From: Pigmentiphaga sp. NML030171
GTDB taxonomy: Bacteria > Pseudomonadota > Gammaproteobacteria > Burkholderiales > Burkholderiaceae_B
Direction: 5' to 3'
DNA: 32,883 nucleotides
Assembly (NCBI RefSeq): GCF_002188635.1
Contig: NZ_NINX01000008.1
Coordinates: forward strand, 1-32,883
The first letter of the stretch is position 1. Each line of letters opens with the position of its first letter. The notes under the pieces were generated by a model. It was not told the origin of the DNA and made no database searches. It saw only the letters and a program-made list of their open reading frames with translations. Both the position numbers and the translations under genes were made by a program. This document shows, one piece after another, positions 79-29,895 of this stretch.

Positions 79-126
79 TAATCGAGGACAACGCCGTGGC
101 TCAAGACGGGATCACCGGGCGCTTAC

Positions 127-207
127 GACGTAGCGGCTTTCCAGCAGACCCAGGACGCGGACATAGCGGGAGGGATGCGGTGGCGTGCCGGCGGCGGTTG
201 CATCCAT
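127..207 (-). pseudogene. 5' fragment of an unknown gene interrupted by the IS66 element
   Basis: On the reverse strand an ATG at 207 is preceded by a good ribosome binding site (GGAGA, 7 bases upstream) and opens MDATAAGTPPHPSRYVRVLG, continuing to ...ESRYVV at 127. The next codons, GTA AGC GCC CGG TGA, already belong to the IS terminal repeat and stop the frame at 112. The gene was therefore cut after 27 codons. The surviving piece is too short for me to assign a family. Its remainder should lie on the far side of the IS, outside the window. Confidence 0.5.
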
Positions 208-745
208 GGGCGTGTCTCCATGGGGCGTGATGCCCTCGTTGATTTCATGATCTGGCGCAGCGGGGGCTGCGGTGGTGTCATGAGAAGTGCAACGGGCGTG
301 CCAGCGGGGATAAGTGTTTGATTTGGTAGGGGGATTTTTTTACGCGAGGCCAGGGGTGCGGGGTTTCCTGGATGCGGAAAAGGGGAAATGGTGCGGTGCA
401 GCTTTATGAAATGGTGAAAGCGATAAGACTGATCTGATTCACCTGCCTAGAAACCTGTCAAATTGGCTGCGATAGGGATAGCTCATGCATTTTCTTGTTC
501 CTAGCAATCGTGACTCACACTCCACACAAGGCCTTAAATGATCGTGTCCAGCAAGTATTGCTTGTCCACCGTCAGCTTTCGGCCCATTGCTGTCGCTTGA
601 GTCTCGACAACCAAAACCTGCTTTGCGGCGCATTGCCGGCTCTCCGCTGTTGCGCCCGCACCTACATTGAGCGACCGCGAGAGTTTCAACCGATGATTGA
701 CACGCTGTCCGAGCGCCGTAGCGCTGAACACAAGGTGGCTTGGGC
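208..745. other. Gene-poor stretch between the interrupted gene and the GHKL-nuclease gene
   Basis: I see no convincing gene here. The short open frames (for example 495-833 forward and 439-873 reverse) lack ribosome binding sites and resemble no family. The 5' end (208-230) carries the ribosome binding site of the interrupted gene. A run of seven T occurs near 335. The reverse-strand frame ending near 534 has a somewhat protein-like tail but no credible start. Confidence 0.4.
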
Positions 746-2758
746 TCAGGCCGATGCTGCATCGGCTTCCGGCGCTGCGTCCACCTCCGGTTCCGCGTCC
801 GAATCTTCAATCTCGAACACCCCTTCGAGGTAGGCTGCGTAACGTTGCTGCAAGTATTTGAGCGACGCGTCACGATCGACTTGAACGTCTAGATGGTCCT
901 GAAAGAACTTCAACCGCGCACGGTTTTCGTCGAGCACCTGTGCCCAAGTCTTTGCATAGATGCTGACGTTTGGTTTTTCCAGAATCAGACCGGTTTCGTC
1001 CTTCACCAAATGCTCAGTATAGGGTTTTAGCTCGTCGCTGATCACCCAAAATGCCCACGTCACCCCGACTTTGGAGAAACGCGGGTCCTCCATCACGGAA
1101 AACGCGTAACCCTGAATCTGCGTCACCTCGTCCGAACCGATGGGCACCTTCGGCGCTTTCAGCTCGACGACTAGGTGCGACAAGCGGTTCGCCCGGTGCT
1201 GCTTCGTCGCCCTCGAAAGCATAAGATCCACGATGCCCCGCGTCTGTGAAATGTGCTTCACTGGCTCATCGATCATGATCTTCGGATCCAGCATCTTCTT
1301 GTGCTCAATCAGAACCTGTGTCAGCGACTGGTCATCCACCGACAAGCCGAACTCTTCTCCAAAGAGCCAGCAGTTCTGAGCGATGATGCGATGTAGCTGC
1401 GATCGTTCTTTCAGGCGCTTCTTGGGCTCCGGGTCGAAGAGCACGGCCTCCAAACCGTTGAGGAACTTCAGGCGGTCCGAGACCACCTTCGCAGCTCCGA
1501 TGATCGAAGAGAGCGTCGTGTCGCGCAGAAGTTGCGCCAGTTCTTGCTGTTGCCGTTTCGGCAGTCGAAGCACCTCGTCCAGGATGACCTGCAAGTCCTC
1601 CGGGCTACGTTCGATCGCCTGACGCAGCATTCGAAGTTGAAATGCCTTATTCTTGCTTTGCGTCGTACTGAAATCTGGCAGGTGCCGCGCCACGTTAACA
1701 GCCACGATATCAAACACCTGACGTTCGACCTTTTCGACTGCTGTCACCGGGTCGCCCGCGAACGGGTAGACCTCTTCGCTCTTCCACTCCTCCACCACCG
1801 TTCTGGCCTGCTCCGCCGCTCGGGTGCGGAAGTGATCCTTGATCGTTTGTTGCGCCTGATTAATGGCGTCAACGATTGCGGTCTGCATTTCCGCGAGATC
1901 GACCGTCCCCTCCTTCTGTGCGAGGTCGAAATACGGCGAGTATAGGTAGCCAGAAAAAGTGAAATTACCAATGTGGAAACGACGGTCTACCTGCAAGAGC
2001 GGGAAACGTTGCTGGTTGCAAAGGTACAGCGTGCGGTTGCCTGCGGCTTTCCACTCGACAACGTGCAAACGCACCCAGTGCTCCTTACCGCCGATTTCAA
2101 TATCGTCCAGGTTGAAGTTCTTGCGACCAGCAATGGCCGATGCGGGGTTGATGGATCGACCGTCCAGTAAGATCTCTGTGTTCTCCTCATAGTCTGCCAG
2201 ATATAGCGCGAAGATCTCGGTCAACTCCTGGCGACCTTCGTCCGACGTAAACGTTCGGAACTCCTTGGTGGGTTCACGGATGGTAAGCGTCACCCCCGAT
2301 TGCACATCACCATTAACCTGCACCTCATCGCTCACGTTGACATGACGGATGTCGAACGCAGTCATGCGGATAGTGTAGGACCAGAACTTGCCTCCCCGAC
2401 GGTAGACCACCGCCCATTCGGCGACGTTGCCAAGAGCGAATGCCTTGAAACGCCCACGACCTTCCTGCCCATGAAGGAACCGGCCGGACACGGTTTGTGA
2501 TTTGGACTTTTTCCATGAGCCGCCGAGGAAGCGGAAAAAGCCGGGCGCATCTGCACGGGCGATGCCTGCTCCATTGTCCTTGACGACGACGGCATCCAGC
2601 GCCCCTAGGTCGTTGTACTCGAACGAGACGTCCACAATTGTCGCGTCGGCGTCAAACGAATTCCATATCAGTTCAGCCAGCGCCGGAATGGGGCGAGCAC
2701 GCGTGATCTTCTCGAGAAAGTCAGATTGCACCTCAACTGGATACTGTTCTGCCGCCAT
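746..2758 (-). CDS. GHKL (MORC/MutL-like) ATPase fused to a PD-(D/E)XK-type nuclease; candidate defence protein
   Basis: The product is 670 residues when started at the internal ATG at 2758, which has an AGGAGA site 5 bases upstream. An upstream in-frame ATG at 2860 would add 34 residues with no good site. Residues 28-40 (ELIWNSFDADA) form the Bergerat N-box that binds ATP/Mg. Residues 60-66 (KDNGAGI) form the second ATP-binding motif, and 96-107 (glycine-rich, GQEGRGRF) form the lid. The C-terminal third (about 455-600) has D511 in GIVDLML and E532-x-K534 in VVELKAP, the pattern of a restriction-type nuclease similar to DUF4263/Shedu. The tail is acidic and Ala-rich. GHKL-plus-nuclease proteins related to eukaryotic MORC are known from restriction-type loci. 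The gene stands alone next to an IS66 and is lower in GC than the flanking core genes, which suggests transfer. A defence role is inferred. Confidence 0.72.
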   Translation of the reverse strand: MAAEQYPVEVQSDFLEKITRARPIPALAELIWNSFDADATIVDVSFEYNDLGALDAVVVKDNGAGIARADAPGFFRFLGGSWKKSKSQTVSGRFLHGQEGRGRFKAFALGNVAEWAVVYRRGGKFWSYTIRMTAFDIRHVNVSDEVQVNGDVQSGVTLTIREPTKEFRTFTSDEGRQELTEIFALYLADYEENTEILLDGRSINPASAIAGRKNFNLDDIEIGGKEHWVRLHVVEWKAAGNRTLYLCNQQRFPLLQVDRRFHIGNFTFSGYLYSPYFDLAQKEGTVDLAEMQTAIVDAINQAQQTIKDHFRTRAAEQARTVVEEWKSEEVYPFAGDPVTAVEKVERQVFDIVAVNVARHLPDFSTTQSKNKAFQLRMLRQAIERSPEDLQVILDEVLRLPKRQQQELAQLLRDTTLSSIIGAAKVVSDRLKFLNGLEAVLFDPEPKKRLKERSQLHRIIAQNCWLFGEEFGLSVDDQSLTQVLIEHKKMLDPKIMIDEPVKHISQTRGIVDLMLSRATKQHRANRLSHLVVELKAPKVPIGSDEVTQIQGYAFSVMEDPRFSKVGVTWAFWVISDELKPYTEHLVKDETGLILEKPNVSIYAKTWAQVLDENRARLKFFQDHLDVQVDRDASLKYLQQRYAAYLEGVFEIEDSDAEPEVDAAPEADAASA

Positions 2759-3131
2759 GCCTTCTCCTATTGCCCGGGGCTGTCTACCGCGTCGCTTTGT
2801 ATCGCAGCATTCTACTGTCTGCGGCGCCGCAAACCCTATGTCCCTGACTTTGAATGACACTAGGTAAGTGGAGGCGACCTTGAGGCGGCGGTTCTCAGCC
2901 AGAAAGCCACCAGGGCATCGGCAGTCAGCGACTTATCCCAGCCTGAACTGGCCGCTCCAGAAAAAGCTGTCATTGCCCGTTCCTGACCGAAAAGAGACTC
3001 TTCGCGACCGCTACTTTTTAGCCCACGGTAGACTCATGGTGCTAACTAGATTCTTCAGCGCCGGACCAAGAGAGCCACGGTACTGGAGAACGCCGTTGCG
3101 TTGCTAATAACTTGAGTATGCCCGCCCCAAC
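2759..3131. other. Divergent intergenic region
   Basis: This region separates the reverse-strand GHKL-nuclease gene from the forward ABC exporter gene, so it should hold both promoters. The ribosome binding site of the former is at 2762-2769. I see a short GC palindrome (gcggcgccgc, about 2820-2829) but no convincing -35/-10 pair. The open frame 2868-3107 has no family features. A five-codon frame starts with ATG at 3118 and ends just across the exporter start codon. Confidence 0.35.
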
Positions 3132-7540: not shown

Positions 7541-10500
7541 ATGGCCAGAAGACCGCTCATACAAAAAGGGATTGCCGAACTCGAACAGATGTTTGACAAA
7601 CAAAAGGGCGACACCGAGTTCCTCAATACTTTGATCGCCGAGCTTTCCCAGAGAAGCGTTCCGCGTGCGCGCGACCTAAAGCGGCGAGCGGCCGAGGCAG
7701 TCAAAAATCTACAGCAAAGAGATACACCAACAACGTCGCCACCGGTCAGCGATCCCAAACCGGCAGCATCGACAAGTGCCGCGCCTGTAAGCTCCCGCCC
7801 TTTCGAACGCGTGGATCGCCCAAGCGGCCCATCCACCAATTGGCCGGACGACATTCTGACGGCCTGGACGGCCATGGAAGTGCTTTCCCCCCCTTCTTAC
7901 CGACGGCCGGAAGATTTGGCAGGTGGAGACAAGTATCGTATCGCGCAATTCAACCGTGGTGCGCTGCCTTGGGAAAACGGTGGCGAGCGAAGCCGCCCCA
8001 ACCAGCGGCTCTATTATCAGCTTATTCTCGGCAGCATCGATATGGAGGCTGCCGTCAACGCGCTGCTGAAGGTCTATACCGACACGCGAGATGAGCGTCC
8101 CCAAGCCCGTGGCGAGGCCGTTCTCGCTACGATCATGCTCGATAAAAACGGCCTGCCGGTCGAGAACGAAGCCGTTTCCATCTCAAGCTTCGGCTGGGGC
8201 GTGCCTGTTGCCCTGTCGGGCCGATTGCGTGACCTTGGGCAGTGGTCTCAGGTCGAAAAGGCACTGATCGAAGAACTTACCAAACAGATCACGGCCGAGG
8301 ACAAGGACGGTAATCCGCTGCCGCTCGATCAGCGCCGCATCCAGCTTGCCTACGAATGGCTGCTTCAAAAACTGGATATCCCAGCCGAATTCGCAAAGCC
8401 GCCGGCCTTTGCCGTTCGATCGTATCAATACTTCAAGCTGCAAGACCCGCCTGAGGCGATCCTGCTCAATTCATTCTTCCTGGATGATCTGGCTACCGCA
8501 CGAGGGCACGTGGCGGCAGGCAGCGCAACTGCCAATCTGAAGCGCTATCTACAGGTTCTCAAGCCGCGCCAACGCCGCAACCTGATGAAGGACAACGCCG
8601 CTCTCGCGGATGCGCTGGAACCGCGAAAATTCCCGGCCGGCTCGTGGCCTGCGAACGGCAGACATCCGCTGGCGCTTCTTCAGCAATGCGCCGTCAACCT
8701 CGCCATTCACGATCTGAAGGATGACGGCATTCTGGCGGTCAACGGACCGCCAGGTACGGGCAAGACGACGCTGCTGCGCGATGTCATCGCAGCTCTGGTG
8801 ACCGAGCGAGCCCAGGTCTTGAGCGGTTTTGACGACCCCGAAGATGCATTCATCCATTCCGGCGAGAAGATGCGAATGGGTAATGCGTTCGTTCATCTTT
8901 ATAGTCTGGACAAGCGGGTCAAAGGCTACGAGATGATCGTAGCCTCCTCCAACAACAAGGCAGTCGAGAACGTCAGTGCGGAACTGCCCGGCATCGAGGC
9001 TATCGCGTCCGATGCTCCGGGTTTGCGCTACTTCAAAACCGTATCCGATGCGCTGTTGCAGCGGGACACATGGGGCACGGTTGCGGCCGTCCTCGGCAAC
9101 AGCAAAAACAGAAGCGATTTCCGGCAGACGTTCTGGTGGGACGATGATGCCGGCTTTCGTCGATACCTGATGCAGGCGGCCGGCCAGCCGCAGCTTTTGG
9201 TCGAAGAGACAAGCGAGGGCACCCGCCAAAGGCCGCCGCAGATCGTCGTGAAGGAAGATGCGCCGGAGGATCAAGATGAGGCTCTACGGCGCTGGAAGAG
9301 GTCACGGCAGAATCTTCAGAAAGCGGTGAGGTCCGCGAAGGCGGCGCTGGCGGATTTGCAAAAAGCCCACGACCTTCTCCGCGCGATAAGGGCCAAAGAG
9401 GCTTCGGTTTCCGGTCTTGAGGCCGAAATCGCATCGCGAGCACGTATCTTGGCCGAACTCGAAACCGCAGCGGACAACGCGGTTGGCCTGCGGGATCGGC
9501 AGCAGAAGACCGTCGATGCCTTGCTGGGCGAGCGGGACGCATTGATACGTCTTCGCCCCGGCTTCTTTAGCAGGCTACTCGGCACGACGGCATATCGTTC
9601 GTGGCAATCCTCCCACAAGCAGATTTCGTCGCGTTTGGGTCTCGAGCAAGGCTCACTTCGGCAGCTTGCGGCGCGGGCGCAGGAGACACTGTCGGGCCTT
9701 GCTTCGGAAAGAAGCAATTTGCAACACCTACGGGCTTCACTCGCTGCCGGGATGGAAGCGCTGAATCGTGATCGGACACAATACGATGCAATTGCCCGTC
9801 AGTATCCGGGTGCATTCCTTTCCGATGAGTTTTTTGCGCAGCGCCACCGCGAAAAGCAGATCAGCGCGCCATGGCTTGACGAGCAAACGGCGCGGCTACG
9901 TAACGATGTATTTGAAGCGGCGATGGCACTGCACAAGGCGTTCATCGACGCAGCGGCCAAACCAATCCGGCACAATCTCAATGTACTGCTCGACAGTTTC
10001 GGCACCCGCTCTCTCGGCAGCCCTGAAAAGGATGCCTTGATACCGGACCTTTGGTCCACGCTGTTCTTGCTGGTGCCGGTCGTCTCGACGACATTCGCCT
10101 CCGTCTCGCGCATGTTCGGCAGGATTCCGCTCGACGCGTTCGGCTGGCTTCTCGTAGATGAAGCCGGGCAGGCCTTGCCGCAAGCGGCGGTCGGCGCCCT
10201 GATGCGGACGCGCAGGGCGGTTGTTGTCGGCGATCCCATTCAGATTGAGCCGGTAGTGGTTCTTCCCGACAAACTCACGGAAGCCATGTGCAACCAATTC
10301 AGCGTCGATCCCTTGACGTTCAATGCGCCGGGCGCGTCTGTCCAGACGCTTTCTGACAGCGCGACAGAATATTACGGCACTTTCGAAACAACGTTCGGGA
10401 CGCGGGAGGTCGGGGTGCCCTTGCTCGTGCATCGACGCTGCGCGGAGCCGATGTTCAGCATTTCCAATTCGATCGCCTATGAAAACCTCATGGTGCAGGC

Positions 10501-10999
10501 AAAAGTCTCCAGGAATTCGGCGATACGTGATGTTCTTGGCCCTTCACGGTGGATCGATATCGAAGGGCGTGGGCAGGAAAAGTGGTGCCCGCAAGAAGGT
10601 GACGCGCTACTCGGGCTCGTGCAGCAGCTCCGAGAACGAGGATGCACGCCGGACTTTTATATCGTGACGCCGTTCGTTGTCGTGCAGGACCGTACCCGCG
10701 AACGTCTGCGATCGAGCGGCGTACTCGAGGGCTGGGTTGAAAACCCGTATCAGTGGATGCGGGATCGCGTGGGAACGGTGCATACCGTGCAGGGCCGGGA
10801 AGCCGAAGCCGTATTCTTCATTCTTGGCGCGCCCGATGCACAGCAAAGGGGTGCGCGCGGCTGGGCTGGCGGTCGGCCCAATCTTCTGAACGTAGCAACA
10901 ACCCGCGCGAAGGAAGCCCTCTACGTCATCGGCAATCGCTCGCTATGGAAAGCGGCGGGAGTCTTCCAGGCGCTGGACGCTTATCTCAAGGGAGCTTAA
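7541..10999 (+). CDS. Large SF1 (Upf1/Dna2-like) helicase with coiled-coil insertion; candidate defence gene
   Basis: The product has 1152 residues. The N-terminal ~390 residues are unassigned. Walker A is GPPGTGKTT at 402-410. A long charged helical insertion, probably coiled coil, spans about 577-745. Motif II is DEAGQ at 873-877, and motif III is GDPIQ at about 897-901. Motif V is TVHTVQGREAEAV (about 1078-1090) and motif VI is NVATTRAKEALYV (about 1115). These are the landmarks of an SF1B helicase or translocase on nucleic acid. No nuclease domain is obvious to me. The gene stands alone between an Abi_C/integrase relic and a gene-poor stretch, and its GC content and codon use are lower than those of the catabolic genes, which suggests transfer. 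Genes of this type are common in defence islands, but no function has been shown here. Confidence 0.8.
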   Translation: MARRPLIQKGIAELEQMFDKQKGDTEFLNTLIAELSQRSVPRARDLKRRAAEAVKNLQQRDTPTTSPPVSDPKPAASTSAAPVSSRPFERVDRPSGPSTNWPDDILTAWTAMEVLSPPSYRRPEDLAGGDKYRIAQFNRGALPWENGGERSRPNQRLYYQLILGSIDMEAAVNALLKVYTDTRDERPQARGEAVLATIMLDKNGLPVENEAVSISSFGWGVPVALSGRLRDLGQWSQVEKALIEELTKQITAEDKDGNPLPLDQRRIQLAYEWLLQKLDIPAEFAKPPAFAVRSYQYFKLQDPPEAILLNSFFLDDLATARGHVAAGSATANLKRYLQVLKPRQRRNLMKDNAALADALEPRKFPAGSWPANGRHPLALLQQCAVNLAIHDLKDDGILAVNGPPGTGKTTLLRDVIAALVTERAQVLSGFDDPEDAFIHSGEKMRMGNAFVHLYSLDKRVKGYEMIVASSNNKAVENVSAELPGIEAIASDAPGLRYFKTVSDALLQRDTWGTVAAVLGNSKNRSDFRQTFWWDDDAGFRRYLMQAAGQPQLLVEETSEGTRQRPPQIVVKEDAPEDQDEALRRWKRSRQNLQKAVRSAKAALADLQKAHDLLRAIRAKEASVSGLEAEIASRARILAELETAADNAVGLRDRQQKTVDALLGERDALIRLRPGFFSRLLGTTAYRSWQSSHKQISSRLGLEQGSLRQLAARAQETLSGLASERSNLQHLRASLAAGMEALNRDRTQYDAIARQYPGAFLSDEFFAQRHREKQISAPWLDEQTARLRNDVFEAAMALHKAFIDAAAKPIRHNLNVLLDSFGTRSLGSPEKDALIPDLWSTLFLLVPVVSTTFASVSRMFGRIPLDAFGWLLVDEAGQALPQAAVGALMRTRRAVVVGDPIQIEPVVVLPDKLTEAMCNQFSVDPLTFNAPGASVQTLSDSATEYYGTFETTFGTREVGVPLLVHRRCAEPMFSISNSIAYENLMVQAKVSRNSAIRDVLGPSRWIDIEGRGQEKWCPQEGDALLGLVQQLRERGCTPDFYIVTPFVVVQDRTRERLRSSGVLEGWVENPYQWMRDRVGTVHTVQGREAEAVFFILGAPDAQQRGARGWAGGRPNLLNVATTRAKEALYVIGNRSLWKAAGVFQALDAYLKGA

Positions 11000-15420: not shown

Positions 15421-15494
15421 TACCAAAGCGCCCTTCGGCGCCACGTGCTAACTACTACTCAAACACCGCGGCGGCCGTCGCAACGGCCTGCCGA

Positions 15495-16502
15495 TTACTT
15501 CTTCAGGTCCAGCGCCACGTCGACGATCATGTCTTCCTGGCCGCCCACCATTTTCCGGCGGCCCAGCTCGACCAGGATGTCCACGGTCTTCAGGTCGTAC
15601 TTGGCGGCGGCGGCTTCGGCGTGGCGCAGGAAGCTGGAGTACACGCCGGCGTAGCCCAGGGCCAGGGTCTCGCGGTCGACGCGGACGGGGCGGTCCTGCA
15701 GCGGACGGACGATGTCGTCGGCGGCGTCCATGAGCTTGTACAGGTCGCAGCCGTGGTTCCAGCCCATGCGCTCGGCGGCGGCGATGAACACTTCCAGCGG
15801 CGCGTTGCCGGCGCCCGCGCCCATGCCGGCCAGGCTGGCGTCGATGCGGTCGCAGCCTTCTTCCACGGCGACGATGGAGTTGGCCACGCCCAGGCTCAGG
15901 TTGTGGTGGGCATGGATGCCGGTTTGCGTTTCGGGCTTGAGCACGTCCTTGAACGCGCGGAAGCGGTCGCGCACGTCGTTCATGTTCAGGGCGCCGCCCG
16001 AGTCGACGACGTAGACGCACGAGGCGCCGTAGCTTTCCATCAGCTTGGCCTGCTCGGCCAGCTTCTGGGGCGTGTTCATGTGACTCATCATCAGGAAGCC
16101 GACGGCGTCCATGCCCAGGTTGCGGGCGTATTCGATGTGCTGCTTGGAGACGTCGGCCTCGGTGCAGTGGGTGGCCACGCGCACCACGCGGGCGCCGGCG
16201 TCATAGGCGTTGCGCAGGTCGTGCACGGTGCCCACGCCGGGGATCAGCAGGGTGGCGACCTTGGCGTGCTTCAGGGTGTCGGCCACGGCCTCGATCCATT
16301 CGAGGTCGGTATGCGCGCCGAAGCCGTAGTTGAAGCTGGAGCCCGACAGGCCGTCGCCGTGAGCGACTTCCAGGCTGTCGACCTTGGCTTCGTCCAGCGC
16401 CTTGGCGATGTCGCGGACGTTCTTGATGCTGTACTGGTGGCGGATGGCGTGGCTGCCGTCGCGCAGCGTGACGTCGGAGATGTAGAGTTTCTTGTTGCTC
16501 AT
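15495..16502 (-). CDS. mhpE: 4-hydroxy-2-oxovalerate aldolase (MhpE/DmpG)
   Basis: This enzyme splits 4-hydroxy-2-oxovalerate (HOPA) into pyruvate and acetaldehyde at the end of meta-cleavage pathways. The 335-residue protein has the HMGL-like TIM barrel with [12 protein letters not shown] near the N-terminus (Arg and Asp of the active site), the metal-binding [11 protein letters not shown], and the C-terminal DmpG communication domain ([14 protein letters not shown]). Length and motifs match DmpG/BphI closely. The gene follows mhpF after 10 bases with GAGGA upstream. The two proteins form a complex in which acetaldehyde is channelled to the dehydrogenase. A strong terminator follows. Confidence 0.95.
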
Positions 16503-16512
16503 GGTGATGTCC

Positions 16513-17463
16513 TCAGGCGGCTTCGACCAGGTGGGTCTGCGCGAAGCGCTCGGCGCACGCCAGGGCGGCCGAAGTCATGATGTCCAGGTTGCCGGCGTAG
16601 GCGGGCAGGTAATGCGCGGCGCCTTCGACTTCCAGGAACACCGAGGTCTTCAGGCCGGACAGCTTGCCCAGGCCGGGAACGTTCAGCGGCGCGCTGGCGG
16701 GGATCTCGTCGAACTGCACGCGCTGCTTCAGGCGGTAGCCGGGCACGTAGCTCTGCACCTTGGCGACCATCTCGGCGATGCTTTCCTCGATGGCCTTGGT
16801 GTCGGCCATTTCCGACAGCGTGAACACGGTGTCGCGCATGATGAGCGGCGGCTCGGCCGGGTTCAGGATGATGATGGCCTTGCCGCGGGCGGCGCCGCCG
16901 ATCACTTCGATGGCCTTGGAGGTGGTCTCGGTGAACTCGTCGATGTTGGCGCGCGTGCCGGGGCCCGCCGACTTGCTGGCGATGGACGCGATGATCTCGC
17001 CGTAGTGCACCTTGGCCACGCGCGAGACGGCCTTGACCATCGGAATGGTGGCCTGGCCGCCGCAGGTGACCATGTTGATGTTGGGCGAGTCGAGGTGCTC
17101 GTCGATGTTGATCGCGGGGATCACGTAGGGACCGATGGCGGCGGGCGTCAGGTCGATGACCTGCACGCCCTTGGCCTGCAGCAGTTCATTGTGGCGCTTG
17201 TGGGCGCCGGCCGAGGTCGCGTCGAAGGCAATGCGGATCTCGTTGAAATTGGGCATGGACAGGAGGCCGTCGATGCCGCCCGCCGTGGTGGGCACGCCCA
17301 GGCGCTCGGCGCGCGCCAGGCCGTCGGATTTCGGGTCGATGCCGACCATGGCGCCCATTTGCAGGTGCTTGCCATAGCGCATGATCTTGATCATCAGGTC
17401 GGTGCCGATGTTGCCCGAGCCGATGATCGCCACTTTGGATTTGTTGTCGTCTTGCCGCCCCAT
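16513..17463 (-). CDS. mhpF: Acetaldehyde dehydrogenase, acylating (MhpF/DmpF)
   Basis: The enzyme oxidises acetaldehyde to acetyl-CoA with NAD and CoA, using acetaldehyde channelled from MhpE. The 316-residue protein has the NAD-binding start [14 protein letters not shown] and the catalytic cysteine C134 in [11 protein letters not shown]. It also has the conserved [16 protein letters not shown] and [12 protein letters not shown] segments of the family. The ATG at 17463 with CAGGAG 6 bases upstream was chosen; an open extension to 17598 lacks a site and homology. It is first in a two-gene operon with mhpE. A dyad at 17565-17583 lies about 100 bases upstream and may control it. Confidence 0.95.
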
Positions 17464-17564
17464 GAGCCGCTCCTGAGTGTGGTGATGCTGATACGGATTC
17501 GACCGATAGTATCTTCCAGCCGGGCGGAAATAGCCTTGCTTTTTTTGGGCATTCCACCGCTCTT

Positions 17565-17583
17565 GAAAGAAGATTCTTCCTTC
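17565..17583. promoter_or_regulatory. Dyad operator-like site between mhpF and the GGDEF gene
   Basis: Centred on T17574, the arms GAAAGAAGA and TCTTCCTTC pair at 8 of 9 positions. The core AGAAGATTCTT (17568-17578) recurs exactly at 18875-18885, just before the Lrp/AsnC gene. Lrp-family boxes have AT-centred dyads of about this size, so binding by the neighbouring regulator is a reasonable guess. A further 7-bp inverted repeat, CTTCCTT (17576-17582) with AAGGAAG (17597-17603), overlaps it. Confidence 0.4.
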
Positions 17584-17684
17584 CAGAAGTCCTTTCAAGG
17601 AAGAAATCCCTAGACGGGCGCACGGGCACCCGAAAAGGCCCCGGAAACCCCATCAGGGCTACACTGGCGGGGACAGACCCTCCC

Positions 17685-18905
17685 ATGTCCCATACCGATA
17701 CGCTCCTCGCGCTTTCCCACCCTCTCGTGGCGCTGCTGATCGCCGCGCTGCTGGGCGGCGCGTGGCGATTCATGGGGCGTCCCGCGCACCTGCTGTATTT
17801 CATCGGCGCCTTCGCCAGCTATGCGACGGCGCTGATCCTGCAGATCACGCTCTGGCCCGCCAACCTGACCGTCAACATCGCCGCGACGGGCGTGCTGTAC
17901 GGCGCCGGGGCCTTCCTGTTCGCCGGCGGCATCGCGCAACTGGAACGCCAGCGCCTGCCATCCTGGCCGTCGGCGCTGATCCTGGCGGCCATGCTGGCCG
18001 TGCGCCTGTGGAGCATCCGCGATCCGGCCTGGTCCGGCCTGCGCATCGGCGCGCTGTACACGGCGGTGACCCTGCTGTTCCTGCTCGCGCTGTGGCGAAT
18101 CCGGCATCTTGCGCGGGGGACGGCGCTGGAGCGGCTGCTGTTCGGCTTCCTGCTGCTGGGCACCCTGAGCCTGCTGCCCCGCGTCCTGCTGACCATGAAC
18201 GCCAAGACCCTGGACTATGGCTACGACGGCGGCATGTACTGGGTGCTGACCCAGCTCAGCTTCTATCTTTTCAGCGTCGGCGCGGCGGTGCTGCTGGTGC
18301 TGTTGACGGCATTCCGCACCATCGCCCATTTCAGCCTGGTGTCCGAACGCGATGCGCTGACCGGCCTGCGCAACCGGAACAGCCTGCTCGATTTCCTGGC
18401 CAGGAGCCGCGGCACGGCGGAGCGCTACGGCCTCGTCATCCTGGACGCGGATCACTTCAAGCAGATCAACGACCACTACGGCCACCCCGTGGGCGACGCG
18501 GTGCTGCAGGCCATGGCGGGCGTCCTGGCGCAGCACGTGCGCAAAATGGACGCCCTGGGCCGCATAGGCGGCGAGGAGTTCATGCTGGTCCTGCCGGGGG
18601 CGACGCTGGAGGAAACCGAGCAGGCCGCGGTGCGGTTGCAGGCGGCCCTGGCACAGCACGATTTCTCTTCCATCGTGCCCGGGCTGCGCTGCACGGCCAG
18701 CTTCGGCATAGGCAGCTTCGAGGGGGACGTGCCTTTCGAAGCATCCTACGCCCACGTCGACCGGCTGCTGGCGCTGGCCAAGCGGCAGGGCCGCAACCGC
18801 ATCGGCAAGGACGCCACCCAACCCGCCGAGGCGGTCGTCACGCAGGCAATGCCCCCGTTGGCTGCCTTTACAGGAGAAGATTCTTTTTCTACGATGAATC
18901 AATGA
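17685..18905 (+). CDS. Membrane diguanylate cyclase (GGDEF domain)
   Basis: The 406-residue protein has a membrane region of about seven hydrophobic segments (about 1-215) followed by a GGDEF domain that makes cyclic di-GMP from two GTP. The active site is the GGEEF variant in RIGGEEFMLVLPG. Upstream signs of the domain are DALTGLRNRNSL, LVILDADHFKQINDHYGH and GDAVL. RKMD precedes GGEEF by five residues, so the inhibitory I-site (RxxD) is present and product feedback is expected. It has no EAL domain. The end overlaps the Lrp gene start by 4 bases (ATGA), so the two are probably co-transcribed. Confidence 0.9.
   Translation: MSHTDTLLALSHPLVALLIAALLGGAWRFMGRPAHLLYFIGAFASYATALILQITLWPANLTVNIAATGVLYGAGAFLFAGGIAQLERQRLPSWPSALILAAMLAVRLWSIRDPAWSGLRIGALYTAVTLLFLLALWRIRHLARGTALERLLFGFLLLGTLSLLPRVLLTMNAKTLDYGYDGGMYWVLTQLSFYLFSVGAAVLLVLLTAFRTIAHFSLVSERDALTGLRNRNSLLDFLARSRGTAERYGLVILDADHFKQINDHYGHPVGDAVLQAMAGVLAQHVRKMDALGRIGGEEFMLVLPGATLEETEQAAVRLQAALAQHDFSSIVPGLRCTASFGIGSFEGDVPFEASYAHVDRLLALAKRQGRNRIGKDATQPAEAVVTQAMPPLAAFTGEDSFSTMNQ
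18875..18885. promoter_or_regulatory. Second copy of the AGAAGATTCTT motif, before the Lrp/AsnC gene
   Basis: The 11-base sequence AGAAGATTCTT repeats the core of the dyad at 17565-17583. It lies 17 bases before the ATG of the Lrp/AsnC gene and inside the end of the GGDEF gene. Its flanks are not palindromic, so it is a weaker site. The position suits autoregulation by the Lrp-type protein. Confidence 0.35.
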
Positions 18906-19387
18906 AAAAGAATGCTCCAACCGAATCCCTGGACCAGACCGACCTGCAGCTGATGCGCCACCTGCAGGAAGACGGCCGCCTGTCCAACGCCAAGCTGGCC
19001 CAGCGCGTGGCGCTGAGCGAGACCCCCTGCTGGCACCGGCTGCGCAAGCTGGAATCCGAAGGCTATATCCAGGGCTACCAGGCCATGCTGGACCGGCGCA
19101 AGCTGGGGCTGGGCGAACTGGCCTTCATCAGCCTGAATTTTTCGCCGCACACGGCGCAAGCCTTCGAGGCGCTGGAGCAACTGGTGGCGGCGAACGACCA
19201 GGTGCTGACCTGCCACCGCGTCACCGGCGAGGCCGACTTCGTGATGATGGTGGTGGCCGAGGACCTGGACTCGGTGCGCGACTTCATCGACAAGGTGCTG
19301 CGCACGCTGCCCAACGTGGCCACGGTGCGCACCAGCCTGTCGCTAAGGGAAGTGAAGTTCTCGAGCAAGCTGCCGCTGCCTGCGTGA
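18902..19387 (+). CDS. Lrp/AsnC family transcriptional regulator
   Basis: A 161-residue regulator with an N-terminal winged helix (about 10-60: LDQTDLQLMRHLQEDGRLSN, AKLAQRVALSE, CWHRLRKLESEGYIQGYQA) and a C-terminal RAM domain (VTGEADFVMMVVAEDLDSV) that forms dimers and octamers and often binds an amino acid. The ATG at 18902 overlaps the stop codon of the GGDEF gene (ATGA), so translation is probably coupled. Length and motifs match the Lrp branch without change. Its effector and targets are unknown; two copies of a dyad motif nearby are possible sites. Confidence 0.92.
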   Translation: MKKNAPTESLDQTDLQLMRHLQEDGRLSNAKLAQRVALSETPCWHRLRKLESEGYIQGYQAMLDRRKLGLGELAFISLNFSPHTAQAFEALEQLVAANDQVLTCHRVTGEADFVMMVVAEDLDSVRDFIDKVLRTLPNVATVRTSLSLREVKFSSKLPLPA

Positions 19388-19391
19388 AACT

Positions 19392-20060
19392 TCAGCCTCC
19401 GCGCAGTCGTGCCGCCGTGGCCTCGTCCGCCGGCTTGGCCAGCAGGCCGCCGCGGTCGTTGAACAACACTTCGTAGCGCGCGCCGTCGAACATGGGCATG
19501 AAGGTGGCGCTGCCGTACTCGGCATCGACGTAGGGCAGCCAGCGCGAGAATTCGCGTTTCAGCACCCACAGGTCTGGCAGGCGCCGGTCGTCGTCCAACG
19601 CGTACATGGTGCGCAGGACGCTGCGTTCGCGCTCGATGTCGTCATAGCGCCCGCCGATGCGGTCCAGGCGGTACAGCGAAGGCACCCCGGCCAGCGCCGC
19701 CGGCAGCCGCCAGCGCAGCACGCGCGCATCGATCTGCCACGCGTCGCCCGACAGCACGAACTGCCGCTCGCCCTGGGGCGCGCCGGCCGGCCCGGGCGGC
19801 AGCGCGACAGTGACGCGGTAGCGCTGCGGGCCTTCCTGCTTGAGCTCGATGGTGGCCACCTGCCGGTCTTCGAACAATTGCAGGTAGCGATGGACCGTGA
19901 AGGCCAGCAACCCCGAGACCAGGCTCAGGGCAACCAGCGCCAGGCCAAGCAGGCGCCGCAATGGCCGCAGCCCGCGCGACCCGAAGGCCATGCCGAGTCC
20001 GGGAACGGCAAGAATGATCGCCGCCACGGCGATCCAGAGAGAAGGGCTCAGCGCATCCAC
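19392..20060 (-). CDS. Membrane protein of unknown function
   Basis: A 222-residue protein with two hydrophobic segments near the N-terminus (about 7-27 and 37-57), then a soluble domain of about 160 residues. The latter is probably periplasmic and has many charged residues and an LYRLDRIGGRYDDIERE motif. It resembles conserved Burkholderiales proteins that are often labelled loosely as efflux-pump related; I would not infer transport. The start is GTG at 20060 with GGAGG 6 bases upstream. It converges on the Lrp gene with a 4-base gap. Confidence 0.72.
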   Translation of the reverse strand: MDALSPSLWIAVAAIILAVPGLGMAFGSRGLRPLRRLLGLALVALSLVSGLLAFTVHRYLQLFEDRQVATIELKQEGPQRYRVTVALPPGPAGAPQGERQFVLSGDAWQIDARVLRWRLPAALAGVPSLYRLDRIGGRYDDIERERSVLRTMYALDDDRRLPDLWVLKREFSRWLPYVDAEYGSATFMPMFDGARYEVLFNDRGGLLAKPADEATAARLRGG

Positions 20061-20194
20061 CCGGGGCCTCCATGTGTATTCCGGGCATCATGCTCGCACA
20101 AACCGGGGGAACGCGTATGTTACGGGTTACCACCGGAGGCTCCGGGCCGGGAGCGCCCGCTGGGGCTGGCCCTGGCTTTTCGAGGCCGTGGCGT

Positions 20195-20290
20195 TCATCC
20201 GCAGGACGACAGCGGGGCGTTGTCCACGATCCTGCGCGCCAGGGTCCCGGCTTCTTTCGCCAGCTGGTCGGGGTCGCAGATGCGGTTGAT
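20195..20290 (-). pseudogene. Enoyl-CoA hydratase/isomerase fragment
   Basis: About 30 reverse-strand codons (INRICDPDQLAKEAGTLARR, then IVDNAPLS) match the region of crotonase-fold enzymes where a helix follows the active-site half. They end at a stop at 20195. Neither the catalytic N-terminal half nor the C-terminus is present. The fragment overlaps the start of the forward Bug fragment near 20275, so this is a junction between two broken genes. The piece is short, hence the limited confidence. Confidence 0.45.
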
Positions 20291-20468
20291 CGCCACCTTG
20301 AACGAGCAGATCAACGCGGTCCTGGGCGAAGCGGCCACCAAGCGGCGCATGCAGGAACTGGGCGTGGCGCCCAGCCCCGACACGCCCGAGGACATGGCGG
20401 CCTTCATGAACACCGAGGGGCGGCGGTGGCAGGCGACGGTGCAATCGGCGAACGTCAGCTTGCAATGA
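20271..20468 (+). pseudogene. Bug-family solute receptor, C-terminal fragment
   Basis: The forward frame reads LIATLNEQINAVLGEAATKR, RMQELGVAPSPDTPEDMAAF and then TEGRRWQATVQSANVSLQ before a stop. This is the invariant C-terminal end of Bug/TctC-type periplasmic receptors (N-x-x-I-N-x-x-L helix, then TPE and ExxRW). About 80 percent of the gene, including the signal peptide and binding lobes, is gone. It is unrelated in position to the intact Bug gene at 24314. Confidence 0.72.
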
Positions 20469-20470
20469 CG

Positions 20471-20494
20471 AAAGAGGCGGCCCCGCGCCGCCCC
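20471..20494 (-). terminator. Probable terminator of mhpBC
   Basis: On the reverse strand, GGGGCGGC and GCCGCCTC form an 8-bp stem with one G-T pair around a 5-base loop, followed by TTTCG. It lies 8 bases after the mhpC stop codon. The stem is strong but the T run is short. Confidence 0.5.
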
Positions 20495-20501
20495 TTCCTG
20501 C

Positions 20502-21371
20502 TCAGTCGTCCAGGAACTCCCGCACCATCCTATTGAACTTTTCAGCGTGCTCCCACTGCGCCCAGTGCCCGCAGCGGCTGAACACGTGCAGTTCGGCATC
20601 GGGCAGCCCCCACAGCAGCCGCAGCCCGACGTCCATGGGTACGAAGCGATCATCGCGCCCCCAGATGACCAGGGTCCGGGCCTTGATCTCTCCCAGGCGA
20701 TGGCCCAGGTCCGGGTACTGCTTGGGATTCACTTCCGAACTCTTCACGAAATTCCGCAAATGCTCGCGACGGGCCAGCATGTTGTCCAGGCGCGCCTGGA
20801 ACAATTCTTCCGTCAGGCTGCCGGGATCATAGACGAACACGTTCATCATGCGCTTGAGATTCTCGATGGTCGGATCGCGATACAGAGCGCCGATCAACTT
20901 GAGTCCCTCGGTGGGCATGGGCACGAATTGGCTGGGACCGCCGGTACCACCGCCCATCAGTACCAGCTTGCCGGTGCGCGCGGGATTGCTCAACGCGAAG
21001 GCTACCGCGCTGTGCGCTCCCATGGAGTTGCCAATGATGTGCGCCTTGTCCAGGCCAATGGCGTCCATCATGCCCTTGAGCGCCTGGGCATTGAGGTCCG
21101 AGCGCGAGCCGGTGCTGACGACGGGGTCGCTCTTGCTCCAGCCGGGGAAGTCCAGCAGGATGACCCGGTAGCCGGCCTCAACCAGCGGCTCGATATTGCG
21201 GTTGAAGTTGGCCCAGCCGCTGGCGCCCGGCCCCGACCCATGCAGCATGACCACGGTCTCGCCGCCGCTGCCGACGTCGTTGTAGTGCAGTTGCAGCTTC
21301 TGGTCGCCAGTATCGATGCGGACGAACCTGCTGGTGGAGGCCTCGCTGAAGACGGGGGTTGGCGTGGACAT
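20502..21371 (-). CDS. mhpC: 2-hydroxy-6-oxonona-2,4-dienedioate hydrolase (MhpC)
   Basis: This alpha/beta hydrolase cleaves the C-C bond of the ring-fission product of 3-(2,3-dihydroxyphenyl)propionate, giving 2-hydroxypenta-2,4-dienoate and succinate. The 289-residue protein matches E. coli MhpC (288) along its length. It has the oxyanion loop [13 protein letters not shown], nucleophile S116 in GNSMGA, Asp in WGRDDRFVP and His in [10 protein letters not shown]. The ATG at 21371 with GAGGAG 6 bases upstream aligns with the E. coli start. An ATG at 21401, overlapping the mhpB stop (ATGA), would add 10 residues. It is second in an mhpBC operon. Confidence 0.94.
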
Positions 21372-21397
21372 GATGTCGATCTCCTCGGGTCGATGGG

Positions 21398-22342
21398 TCA
21401 TTTGTCCTGCATGAACAGGATGCCGTAGCCGGCGATGAGTTCCGGGATGGCCTGGTAGTGCCTCAGCCCACAGGGCAGCGGCCGGGATGGCAGGGCCGCG
21501 CGGGCGACCAGCCAGGTCTTGGATTCATGGGCGGACAAGCCTGCCTCGCAGGCGATGGCATCTTCATTCCAGGCCGCCAGGGCTTGCAGGTCTCCCCCGG
21601 CCAGTGCGTCCATCCAGCGAGCATCCCACTCCGGGTTGAGCGGTTTCATGTCCGGCGCGCCGCCTGCCAGGGCCATACCAGCAGCCATCACGCGCGCGGT
21701 CTTGGCGTCACGCTCAGCGGACGTGGGCTCCTGCCGGACGATGATGCGTTCGCGCACCGCGGGATCGGGATGCGCCAGGGTCGGAACCGGCGGCTCGTGC
21801 GAAAGGCCGCCCGATCCGATCAGCAAGGTTCGACGCGGCAGCGCGTCCAGGAAGCGGCCAAGCTCCTGGCCCAGCTGCAAGCAACGGCGCAGACGTGGAA
21901 TGCCCGGCTGGGCGACAGCGTTCAGGAACAAGGGGACGACCGGCGGTGTATCCAGGTCGCCCCACAGGAACTGCAACGCCTGCACGAAACCGTGGTCAAC
22001 CTGCATGCGACGAGACAGCGCGATGTCGAAACCCGCATCCATCAAGTGATCCGCCAGTGCCAACACGGTGGATTCGTCGACATTCAGTGCGCCGGCCGGC
22101 GTCAGATAGTCGCCCACCGAGCGCGCAGCGCTGCCCAGGCAGAACGGCGGCATTAATTCATTGAAGAAGCCGTTGTAGTGATCGGGCCCGGCCAGCACCA
22201 CCAGCTGAGGATCGAAGGCGCGCACCAGTTCGCGGGCCTGGGCGATGGCCGCATCCAGCGTCCTCTGGACATCGCTGGCCAGCGGGTTCAATCCGAACAA
22301 CGGGGTGTGCGACATCCCAAGGAAAGCTCGCGTCGCAGTCAC
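21398..22342 (-). CDS. mhpB: 2,3-dihydroxyphenylpropionate 1,2-dioxygenase (MhpB)
   Basis: A class III extradiol ring-cleavage dioxygenase with an Fe(II) site, opening 3-(2,3-dihydroxyphenyl)propionate or the cinnamate analogue. The 314-residue length equals that of E. coli MhpB. Shared features are GMSHTPL near the N-terminus, [27 protein letters not shown], the [14 protein letters not shown] block, and the late HESKTW and GYG motifs. The start is GTG at 22342 with GAGGTG 7 bases upstream. The gene is the first of the leftward mhpBC pair, divergent from the ring-hydroxylase operon across an MhpR-type operator. Confidence 0.94.
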
Positions 22343-22402
22343 TCGATCACCTCATGCTTTATCCGCAAAGCCTGGACTTTAAGGACTCGAAGCGCCCATA
22401 GG

Positions 22403-22419
22403 GGTGCACATTGTGCACC
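22403..22419. promoter_or_regulatory. MhpR-type operator, perfect 17-bp palindrome
   Basis: GGTGCACATTGTGCACC has two perfect 8-base arms around a central T. It resembles the E. coli MhpR operator, which as I recall contains the same GGTGCAC half-sites and lies about 58 bases before the start. Here the centre is about 60 bases before the predicted start of the rightward promoter. A third GTGCAC follows at 22423-22428 inside an 8-bp palindrome (CGTGCACG), 10 bases further on. The MhpR-like gene lies at 26428. Confidence 0.75.
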
Positions 22420-22435
22420 TTCGTGCACGTGATCG

Positions 22436-22464
22436 TTGATGTCCGCAACAGCCACCCATAGGAT
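22436..22464 (+). promoter_or_regulatory. Predicted promoter of the ring-hydroxylase operon
   Basis: TTGATG (22436-22441) and TAGGAT (22459-22464) are separated by 17 bases and each match the sigma-70 consensus at 4 of 6 positions. That is a weak promoter, as expected for one needing an activator. The start would be about 22471. The palindrome at 22403-22419 then sits near -60, the place for an IclR-type activator. Confidence 0.5.
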
Positions 22465-22492
22465 GCGCCGGTCCAGAAGTAGGAGTAGAAAT

Positions 22493-23761
22493 ATGAATGT
22501 CCGGCTGGAATCCCGTCCGTTCGCCAGCATGGTGGACGAACAGCCCAACGAGTTCCGCGTCGCCACCGCGGCGTACCGCGGTCCGGAGATCTTCGAGCAA
22601 GAAATGGAGAAGATTTTCTACCGGACCTGGATCTACCTTTGCCATGAAAGCGAAATCGCCGAGCCCGGCGATTTCAAGTCGACCCAGATCGGTACACGGC
22701 CGGTCGTCGTCGCGCGCGGCCGCGAAGGTGGCGTGCACGCGTTCCTGAATGCCTGTGCGCACCGCGGCGCCACGCTGTGCCGCGAGGAAAAGGGCAATAC
22801 CCGGTCTTTCGTCTGCCCGTATCACGGCTGGTCTTTCCGTCCGTCGGGCGAACTGCTCGGTATTCCGGACGAAGCGCGCTATCCGACTGGCTTCGACAAA
22901 TCCGACAAGAACCTCAGGCCCGTTCCCCGCATCGCATCCTACGGAGGCCTGATCTTCGGCTCCTTCAATCCTGGCGTGGAAGACCTGGAGACATTCCTGG
23001 GCGGTGCCCGGCGGCACATCGACATCTGGCTCAAGCGCGCCGCAGGCAGCCGCTACCGCCTGGCCACTTCGCACAAGTACGGCTTCAACGGCAACTGGAA
23101 ATTCCAAGCCGAGAACGTCCACGACGGCTACCATCCGGGCTTCGTCCACAAGTCGGCGTTCAATACGGTACGCAAATTCGACGGATCGTTCGAGAACCGG
23201 GAACTCAAGGCTTCGGTGCGCCAGCAAGGCCACACGCGAGGCTATCCCGAAGGGCACGGCACGCTGGAGGCGGGGGCACCGCTGGAGTCGGGCGGGATCG
23301 ATCCGCGCGTGCGGCAGGCCTACAACGACCAGTTGAAGACCTTGTACGGCGAGGATGAGACCGCCGAGATCCTGACCAACCGTCAATTCCTGATCTTCCC
23401 CAACCTGGTGATCTTCGATTTCAACATTCGCGTGGTCCAGCCCATCGCGCACGATCGAACCGAGGTCTATTCCTATCCGGTGATGATCGAGGACGCGCAT
23501 GAGCAGCTCAATGCCAATCGCATGCTGGACGCCCAGACCAGGGTGGGTACGGCGGGCATCCTGTCGGCCGACGATATCGATGTGTTCGCGGGTAACCAGA
23601 ACGCGCTGAAGGCCAACTGCTTCGACTGGATCACACTCAGCCGCGGGCTGGACAAGGAGGAGATCCTGCCGTGCGGCGAGCACGTCGGCGTCTATAGCGA
23701 CGAAACGCCTCAGCGCGCGTTCTGGCGTGCCTGGCGCTCGAAGATGGCATCAGCCCGCTGA
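22493..23761 (+). CDS. Aromatic ring-hydroxylating oxygenase, alpha (catalytic) subunit
   Basis: The 422-residue protein has a Rieske [2Fe-2S] site with C88-x-H90 and C108-x-x-H111 (CAHRGATLC and CPYHGWSF). Its catalytic domain has D211, H214 and H219 in NVHDGYHPGFVH, the electron-bridging Asp and the iron-binding histidines. Size and the pairing with a 160-residue beta subunit fit the benzoate / terephthalate / salicylate-5-hydroxylase group better than naphthalene or biphenyl dioxygenases. The exact substrate cannot be read off. With mhpB and an MhpR-type regulator next to it, a phenylpropanoid or similar ring acid is the likeliest guess. The start is the ATG at 22493 with AGGAG 8 bases upstream. 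No ferredoxin or reductase gene is in the window. Confidence 0.9.
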   Translation: MNVRLESRPFASMVDEQPNEFRVATAAYRGPEIFEQEMEKIFYRTWIYLCHESEIAEPGDFKSTQIGTRPVVVARGREGGVHAFLNACAHRGATLCREEKGNTRSFVCPYHGWSFRPSGELLGIPDEARYPTGFDKSDKNLRPVPRIASYGGLIFGSFNPGVEDLETFLGGARRHIDIWLKRAAGSRYRLATSHKYGFNGNWKFQAENVHDGYHPGFVHKSAFNTVRKFDGSFENRELKASVRQQGHTRGYPEGHGTLEAGAPLESGGIDPRVRQAYNDQLKTLYGEDETAEILTNRQFLIFPNLVIFDFNIRVVQPIAHDRTEVYSYPVMIEDAHEQLNANRMLDAQTRVGTAGILSADDIDVFAGNQNALKANCFDWITLSRGLDKEEILPCGEHVGVYSDETPQRAFWRAWRSKMASAR

Positions 23762-23782
23762 ACAATCCCGCCCGGAGCATCC

Positions 23783-24265
23783 ATGTCCCATCCCATCCAT
23801 CGACTCATACATCAAGAAGCGCGTCTGCTGGACGAGGGCCGGCTCGACGACTGGCTCGCGCTGTACGCCGACGACGCCACCTATTGGGTGCCGATCGACG
23901 AACACGCCGACCCGTTGAAGGATTCATCGGTCATCTACGACGACCGCCTGCGCCTGGCCATGCGCGTCGAGCAGATCATGCGCCAATCCCGCGTGGCGCA
24001 GTCGCCGGCATCCAATACCTTGCGCATGATCACCAACGTGGACGTGGCCGAGAACGGCGACCTGGCCTCCGCGACATTCGCCCTGCTGCTGACTGAAGTG
24101 CGTTCTGGCGACTGGCGCCAGAACGGCCTCGGAGAAACCCGGCTCTTTCCCGCCCATTGCACGATGACGTGCAGCCGGACCGCGGACGGCTGGAAGATCC
24201 AGCACAAGAAGATCGTGCTGCTGCATCGCAGACAGCCGATCGTGGGCCTGTCGTTCATCATCTAG
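23783..24265 (+). CDS. Aromatic ring-hydroxylating oxygenase, beta subunit
   Basis: The 160-residue protein has the SnoaL/NTF2-like fold of small oxygenase subunits: HRLIHQEARLLDEGRLDDWL, ADDATYWVPIDEHADPL, SVIYDDRLRLAMRVEQI, and a C-terminal KIQHKKIVLLH strand. It has no cofactor and holds the alpha subunits in an alpha3-beta3 complex. It starts 21 bases after the alpha gene with GGAG upstream. It is the second gene of the rightward operon. Confidence 0.9.
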   Translation: MSHPIHRLIHQEARLLDEGRLDDWLALYADDATYWVPIDEHADPLKDSSVIYDDRLRLAMRVEQIMRQSRVAQSPASNTLRMITNVDVAENGDLASATFALLLTEVRSGDWRQNGLGETRLFPAHCTMTCSRTADGWKIQHKKIVLLHRRQPIVGLSFII

Positions 24266-24313
24266 CGGCCTGGCCGCGCGGAGTGCCCTCGGGCTCCCAT
24301 ATCAGGAGACATC

Positions 24314-25273: not shown

Positions 25274-25289
25274 ACGGCAGGAGCGAGCA

Positions 25290-26321: not shown

Positions 26322-26427
26322 AAGCAGGCGCTTGCCCTTGACCGCGGGGTCACGCCGGTCGGCCCGGGACCGGACGCCATCTATCGTAAGATCGACGCAT
26401 CGTTCCCCGATCACGAAATCTGCACAG

Positions 26428-27237: not shown

Positions 27238-27258
27238 GCGGCGAAATTTTCCGCCGAA

Positions 27259-27288
27259 GGGAATATTGGACGGCCCGCCCCCGTATAC
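27259..27288 (+). promoter_or_regulatory. Candidate ECF-sigma promoter
   Basis: GGGAATATT (27259-27267) and CGTATACC (27282-27289) are spaced so that GGAATA and CGTATA are 16 bases apart. This GGAAT...CGT layout is typical of promoters read by ECF sigma factors. It lies about 40 bases before the secreted-protein gene that heads an operon with its own ECF sigma gene, so autoregulation is likely. Confidence 0.5.
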
Positions 27289-27326
27289 CGTTCAAGCACC
27301 CTTCATCAACCACCAAGGAGCATCCC

Positions 27327-27713: not shown

Positions 27714-27725
27714 CCTGACCGGCCC

Positions 27726-28229: not shown

Positions 28230-28233
28230 AACC

Positions 28234-29013: not shown

Positions 29014-29060
29014 GTATCGCGGGCTGTTGCCAGGGCATGCCGATTCAAGCATCCCTACTT

Positions 29061-29089
29061 TTGATTTGTACGGCAATTTGCCGTATGAT
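29061..29089 (+). promoter_or_regulatory. Promoter with embedded operator of the toxin-antitoxin operon
   Basis: TTGATT (29061-29066) and TATGAT (29084-29089) are 17 bases apart; the -10 matches the consensus at 5 of 6 positions. Between them lies a perfect 17-bp palindrome, TACGGCAATTTGCCGTA (29069-29085), filling the spacer. A repressor bound there would block RNA polymerase. TacA-type antitoxins repress their own operons in this way. Confidence 0.75.
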
Positions 29090-29891: not shown

Positions 29892-29895
29892 TCCG

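Follow-up and report, generated by a model that had tools for sequence, protein, structure and literature searches.

What might a single gene do that joins a GHKL ATPase to a nuclease and that lies alone in an inserted segment of a bacterial genome? Such a gene occupies positions 746 to 2758, on the minus strand, of the 32,883-nucleotide stretch of Pigmentiphaga sp. NML030171 that we analyzed (the window), and it codes for a protein of 670 aa in which the open reading frame, Pfam, alignment and a structural model together delineate a GHKL ATPase, an S5-like/helical middle and a PD-(D/E)XK nuclease. We infer that this one mobile gene probably encodes an anti-phage protein of the paraMORC3/Shedu-type-I-D kind, with a nuclease gated by the GHKL domain. 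The GHKL-nuclease layout and its anti-phage activity are already known from the tested protein VcSduA, and the window protein looks like a distinct branch.

The gene begins with an ATG at 2758, a start position common to most rows of an alignment of its relatives, and its stop ends at 746; the open frame continues upstream to 2860, and the stretch AGGAGAAG lies upstream of the ATG. The N-box of the protein reads E29LIWN33SFD36 and is followed by D61NGAG65, K83 and the lid G97QEG100RG102R103, while the nuclease residues are E451, D511, E532LK534, Q547 and Y551. A preliminary description had proposed the fusion of a GHKL ATPase to a C-terminal nuclease, with intact N-box, DNGxG and lid motifs; Pfam, alignment and model bear out the fusion, the motifs are kept across 88 aligned relatives, and its numbering of N33, D511, E532 and K534 is correct, the strand (minus) being absent from it. 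The lower GC that it noted is also real, the gene having 56.1% against 63.6% for the window and 65.7% for positions 15448-32883. The gene is present in a single copy in its own genome (5.86 Mb, 57 contigs).

The GHKL ATP-binding domain spans residues 25-137 (2348 to 2686, minus strand), where the single protein matches Pfam HATPase_c_3 at E 5.9e-14, an assignment that Foldseek also gives. Among PADLOC and NCBIfam models, the ATPase end further matches those of MutL, MzaB and BbrUII/HgiDII-like Type II restriction enzymes, and a family profile finds MutL and MORC2 sequences. A model of the whole protein matches TRAP1/Hsp90, MORC2 and MutL in the Foldseek rows; it has a pLDDT of 80.1 and a pTM of only 0.52, from which the predicted arrangement of the domains is uncertain, and a putative S5 domain is suggested solely by strands at about residues 195-273 of this model.

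The C-terminal region, residues 400-648 (815 to 1561, minus strand), was modelled alone from a 73-row alignment and gave a PD-(D/E)XK fold with pLDDT 92.5 and pTM 0.88. In the best 50 of 754 Foldseek matches only MspJI chains fall below E 0.001 (best 3.6e-5, probability 1.00), with a low TM-score of 0.35 as the best in the first Foldseek rows, and they are followed by AspBHI, EcoO109I, FokI and McrBC at E 0.007-0.04. The nuclease fold claimed for the C-terminus was supported by the confidence of the model and by the MspJI match, and we regard the predicted restriction-endonuclease fold, and the reading of this domain as a nuclease, as well supported. In Pfam, HSDR_N_2 matches residues 477-554 of the single protein with 22.9 bits, just below the cut-off of 25, and it matches 65 of the 73 nuclease domains; readings as Mrr, Cas4 or PDDEXK_9 were set aside, fewer members matching these. 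A profile search of PDB sequences with the nuclease gave nothing at E 1, and a search of BFVD gave no match below E 0.001. PHROG 6203, a phage protein family with no function recorded, matches the window protein at E 1.9e-61 in two stretches, the best of which is C-terminal (387-631).

The preliminary description had called this domain Shedu/DUF4263-like, which is fair as a remote relation detected between sequence profiles and not as a signature match. Aligned by hhalign against SduA_C proteins, all 32 relative rows together gave 94.4% at E 9.5e-8, and when the relatives were split the nearer rows gave 83.4% and the farther rows 86.2%. The 73 rows gave 94.3% with a score of 61.1 against ten SduA proteins, 100 column shuffles reaching at most 17.0. 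That set includes one protein (L054) that is probably in the wrong frame; a repeat with the nine proteins of checked frame, which leaves L054 out, scored 60.8 against 18.6 for shuffles, and twenty SduA proteins of checked frame gave 93.4% and 58.3 against 16.4. With the 3 SduA proteins that pass a motif filter the values were 73% and 40.1, 60 shuffles reaching at most 21.4. The nuclease is accordingly related by profile, at 93-94% and an E of about 1e-7, to canonical Shedu SduA (PDB 8ti8, 8ti9, 8tia), with which it has in common the segment E..LH.II..N.WLFG and the ExK strand. The Pfam signature of Shedu, PF14082 (SduA_C), however finds no match at E 0.1 among 32 full-length relatives and only weak ones in 10 of the 73 nuclease domains (E 0.1 or below, best 8e-5); no protein of the bacterium's own genome matches it, and the PADLOC SduA model finds 2 of 32 relatives, best at 0.0018. 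Neither Pfam with the single sequence nor Foldseek points to Shedu in particular for the window protein. A fold comparison of the C-terminus, which had been suggested as a check, gave a restriction-endonuclease fold, with no SduA chain in the best 50 of 754 Foldseek matches; the relation to SduA_C comes from the profile alignment. Unlike the window protein, the SduA proteins compared have no recognised GHKL domain.

Both active sites are conserved in the family. All 88 aligned full-length rows keep N33, D61, G63, G65, K83, G97, G100, G102 and R103 in the ATPase, and E451, W464, D511, E532, K534, Q547, Y551 and W605 in the nuclease; E29 is kept in 87 of 88 and is Q in the remaining one. These rows are 85 different sequences, with L028 and L076 being one gene counted twice. 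Partial, broken or weak matches were left out before counting (L008, L012, L015-L019, L024, L026/L030, L044, L113, L114, L142, L146, L148), as were near-duplicates (L110, L124, L132, L139, L141, and L023, the same gene as L075) and other GHKL proteins below 90 bits (L079-L090).

Relatives are found at 13 loci on genome contigs, in 2 phage records and in 49 plasmid records, of which 35 reach a cover of 80% or more. Burkholderia and Paraburkholderia hold five full-length relatives of 73-93% identity and one partial one, and others come from Rhizobium, Clostridiaceae, Flavobacterium, Marinobacterium, Fibrobacteria and Nanopelagicales, with a partial match in an archaeon. The spread is patchy: 11 of 398 genomes surveyed across the phylum have a match at E 1e-10, and 20 of 369 across the class have one at E 1e-15 with an alignment as query, the source genome being included in both counts; of the latter 20, 9 score above 570 bits and 11 below 80. 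No full-length relative was found among 10 other genomes of the genus, where weak matches in five near genomes (E 2e-7 to 3e-4) were dropped since they cover the ATPase only, and an E. coli collection held no similar DNA. IMG/VR contains 58 loci with relatives, some of them partial or near-identical, which were retrieved with an alignment query resting on one 8-residue pattern; the single protein as query found no relative there, nor did the ABC exporter.

In a quick tree a branch with support 100 sets the 88 rows apart from ten other GHKL-nuclease proteins, among which long branches were flagged and which include a BbrUII-like group and GHKL proteins matching SduA_C. By this sequence comparison the clade of the window protein is separate from those ten. 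Two short proteins of 586-589 aa (L055:184-1941 and L056:1324-3090) are GHKL proteins whose C-terminus matches SduA_C with 27.2 and 21.6 bits (cut-off 27), and judged by these matches Shedu may be closer to them than to the window protein. On a Rhizobium plasmid, a GHKL protein of another clade (L153:5953-9358, plus strand) is followed 10 bp on by a gene annotated as a Shedu immune nuclease family protein. The PADLOC 2023 models give only partial or weak matches for the clade of the window protein.

The gene is mobile and is a single-gene insert, because the sequences that flank it adjoin in three congeners and because its relatives lie on phages and plasmids. We compared window positions 126-418 and 3103/3160-4896, between which the window has 2.7 kb with the gene, and opened the joint in 5 of 10 congeners; in three of these (G007, G005 and G008) the two flanks are 77-117 bp apart, and for G002 the stretch compared showed the right flank alone. 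The inserted segment, delimited by this comparison and by GC, runs from 419 to 3122 (about 2.7 kb, 55.7% GC) and the gene is the only one recognised in it, as the preliminary description had said in stating that it stands alone. In the remaining congener (G003, L174:4617-7276) a different insert of 2.66 kb and 51.7% GC occupies the same joint, with ORFs of 339 and 137 aa that have no PADLOC match. The joint looks like a hotspot for cargo. The gene had also been placed beside an IS, and positions 1 to 125, which start at the contig edge, belong to the end of an IS66-like element: contig C42 of this genome has a stretch with 97% identity to bases 1-127, and its ORFs, read by eye, form an IS66-type transposase set. 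This much of the claim stood, but the rest of the element is outside the window; a DNA pattern for a palindrome near the left edge gave no match. Elsewhere in the window, 4.8 kb from the gene, positions 7541-10999 (plus strand) encode a 1152-aa SF1 helicase (AAA_11/AAA_12) whose residues 372-1139 match PADLOC MkoC (Mokosh) at 1.2e-61, and by this match it is a possible second defence gene.

A survey of gene neighbourhoods, which had been proposed as a check, placed relatives in phages and on plasmids, some of them near defence genes. From the 51 plasmid and phage records we chose 14 regions for variety, of which 12 are annotated and 2 are not, the plasmid tables being incomplete. A named or matched defence or restriction-modification gene lies within 12 kb in 6 of the 12 annotated regions, a raw count with no background rate: a Type ISP restriction-modification gene that overlaps the relative by 4 bp (L031), AbiJ-NTD4 (L033), Drt2 with dcm and LlaMI (L034), a Hachiman-type HamB with AbiJ (L035), a Type IIG restriction-modification gene (L039) and a helicase with a partial Type IIG match (L040). 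Four of the 12 (L032, L036, L041 and L044) have no defence gene, L036 and L041 having toxin-antitoxin and integrase genes. The other two are the genomes of Pasteurella phages Pmp3 (L037:9759-11717) and Pmp14 (L038:11986-13944), in which the relatives sit inside the tail gene cluster and are annotated as hypothetical. At five viral loci, ten chosen long ORFs each match a PHROG, including terminase, portal, tape measure and helicase/primase. Around the closest relatives, at five Burkholderiaceae loci, 1 of the 10 nearest ORFs has a strong PADLOC match, the candidate PDC-S21 (1.1e-120) at L003:12049-13047 on the minus strand beside a relative of 74% identity, and a second OR​F of that locus matches weakly. 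Next to the relative L075, in genome G091, lies a 435-aa frame with SduA_C, and copies are also found on large contigs of bacterial genomes. Neighbours vary, none being conserved across the 12 annotated regions and the five Burkholderiaceae loci. Mobility and the phage and defence context of the relatives, given as raw counts, support the earlier suggestion of a single-gene defence candidate.

That no tested system has this fusion, as the preliminary description had it, has been overtaken by VcSduA, which was tested (PMC12137116), and by the paraMORC3 layout (PMC2292703). VcSduA, from VSP-II of V. cholerae WASA, was reported in Nature Microbiology in 2025 as a GHKL ATPase with a DUF4263 nuclease (PMC12137116). 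By that account, in which it is named VC_00276 of V. cholerae A1552, it protects E. coli against Drexlerviridae phages and V. cholerae against X29 where ddmABC is deleted; protection was kept at every MOI tested; the substitutions E27A and K557A abolished the activity tested in E. coli; and proteins so organised, earlier named paraMORC3, were placed in Shedu type I-D (PMC12137116). In the literature searched, VcSduA is the only tested protein of this layout that we found, and no experiment on the 88-row clade was found. The window protein resembles VcSduA, as reported, in being the product of a single gene on mobile DNA with an N-terminal GHKL domain (E27 there, E29 here) and a C-terminal PD-(D/E)XK domain, in which we take K534 to be the counterpart of K557. 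In contrast to VcSduA, which is reported with the DUF4263 signature, its clade fails PF14082. The distance from E27 to K557 is 530 residues against 496-519 in the clade of the window protein, compared by spacing, and it falls inside the 503-539 of five BbrUII-like proteins; as a hint from this spacing only, VcSduA may belong to another clade than the window protein.

The paraMORC3 proteins were described as a GHKL domain, an S5 domain and a C-terminal restriction-endonuclease-fold domain with E-D-ExK, a subset being standalone and mainly from proteobacteria and bacteroidetes, and the MORC family proper as having the motif GhXhhpXXRhl in the S5 domain (Iyer, Abhiman and Aravind 2008; PMC2292703). 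Here E-D-ExK corresponds to E451, D511, E532 and K534 in 88 of 88 rows, and the gene is likewise standalone with no conserved neighbours. The family fits paraMORC3 by matching this description.

Several other readings were weighed against that of a separate branch of anti-phage proteins. The window protein could simply belong to the VcSduA family (Shedu type I-D) and have no feature that distinguishes it; the same domain order, the same two active sites and a standalone gene on mobile DNA speak for this, as does the reported placement in Shedu of proteins so organised and once called paraMORC3 (PMC12137116), but PF14082 goes unmatched, the residue spacing differs from that reported for VcSduA, and the 88-row clade is separate from the SduA_C-matching GHKL proteins L055, L056 and L090. 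We hold this to be a serious possibility, falling short of probable. Copies in viral contigs and on plasmids speak for a role as cargo in conflicts of phage with phage or in plasmid exclusion, whose main target would be competing mobile elements; this is possible but doubtful. It is compatible with the defence reading, and large contigs from bacterial genomes carry copies as well. A MutL-related protein of DNA repair or genome maintenance, with no part in defence, would be in keeping with the likeness of the GHKL domain to MutL, MORC2 and Hsp90, both in sequence and in fold. It would not be expected to be as patchy as 11 of 398 phylum genomes (the source genome among them) and absence from 10 congeners, nor to be carried by phages and plasmids among variable neighbours, and a MutL is already encoded in this genome, divided between two contigs; we consider this reading very improbable.

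The ATPase end raises one further alternative: like BbrUII/HgiDII, the protein could be a sequence-specific restriction enzyme, its methyltransferase having been lost or lying elsewhere. The best NCBIfam match of the window protein is NF050001 (BbrUII/HgiDII), at 34.4 bits with a cut-off of 550, PADLOC REase_II matches it at 4.7e-8, and the layout of a GHKL ATPase and a PD-(D/E)XK nuclease in one chain is common to the proteins that we call BbrUII-like, L084 and L090 (by PADLOC REase_II) and L149-L152 (by the tree). These matches, however, are confined to the ATPase end (residues 27-204 and 29-115), and the clades separate in the quick tree with support 100 and 98; the BbrUII-like rows looked at have an N-box N(A/S)(W/Y)D, against IWNxFDADA in the clade of the window protein. 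Each of the four plasmid-borne BbrUII-like genes opened, which belong to the other clade, adjoins a cytosine methyltransferase, in a sample that was not blind, some listings having already displayed the methyltransferase. The genome of the window, by contrast, has no match to PF00145, the cytosine-5 methyltransferase family (completeness 100; the search was for PF00145 only, adenine methyltransferases lying outside it), whereas 10 of 14 control genomes have one. Because of this absence we lowered an already small estimate for this alternative a little further, and now find it hard to credit. Since the genome lacks a cytosine-5 methyltransferase and no methyltransferase is a conserved partner of the gene, the cell's own DNA is probably spared by what triggers the protein and not by methylation.

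We therefore prefer the reading as a mobile anti-phage nuclease gated by a GHKL ATPase, because the ATPase and nuclease residues are invariant in 88 of 88 rows, the C-terminal model is nuclease-like and related by profile to Shedu, the gene is mobile with relatives in phages and beside Drt2, Hachiman, AbiJ and restriction-modification genes, and VcSduA, of the same layout, is reported to be anti-phage and to need both active sites. Counted against it are the unmatched PF14082, the single strong PADLOC match among 10 nearest ORFs, the 4 of 12 regions without a defence gene, TM-scores of at most 0.35 in the first Foldseek rows, the whole-protein pTM of 0.52 and the VcSduA spacing, as reported, outside the range of the clade. 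By analogy with the MutL, Hsp90 and MORC families the protein would be a dimeric ATP-gated clamp: two protomers would dimerise through their GHKL domains on ATP binding and the dimer would close over DNA. A DNA state typical of infection, such as free ends or replicating or oddly structured phage DNA, would let the clamp engage and position the C-terminal PD-(D/E)XK domains to cut the invader, which could confer phage resistance, and ATP hydrolysis would then reset the clamp.

A bolder proposal is that the 88-row clade is an anti-phage system of its own, a GHKL clamp-nuclease that is driven by ATP and has prophages and plasmids as its main carriers, which would sense the state of DNA (ends, topology or replication structure) and not methylation, and which would have arisen apart from VcSduA by the joining of a paraMORC ATPase to a Shedu/HsdR-type nuclease. 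We put this forward tentatively and consider it rather unlikely. The window protein draws attention to a large clade of GHKL-nuclease proteins, borne by phages and plasmids, that the PADLOC 2023 models match only in part or weakly. With one gene and two clear catalytic sites, it would offer a good test of how a nuclease can be controlled by a MutL/MORC-like clamp when no methylation mark is involved, and the answer would bear on the eukaryotic MORC proteins too.
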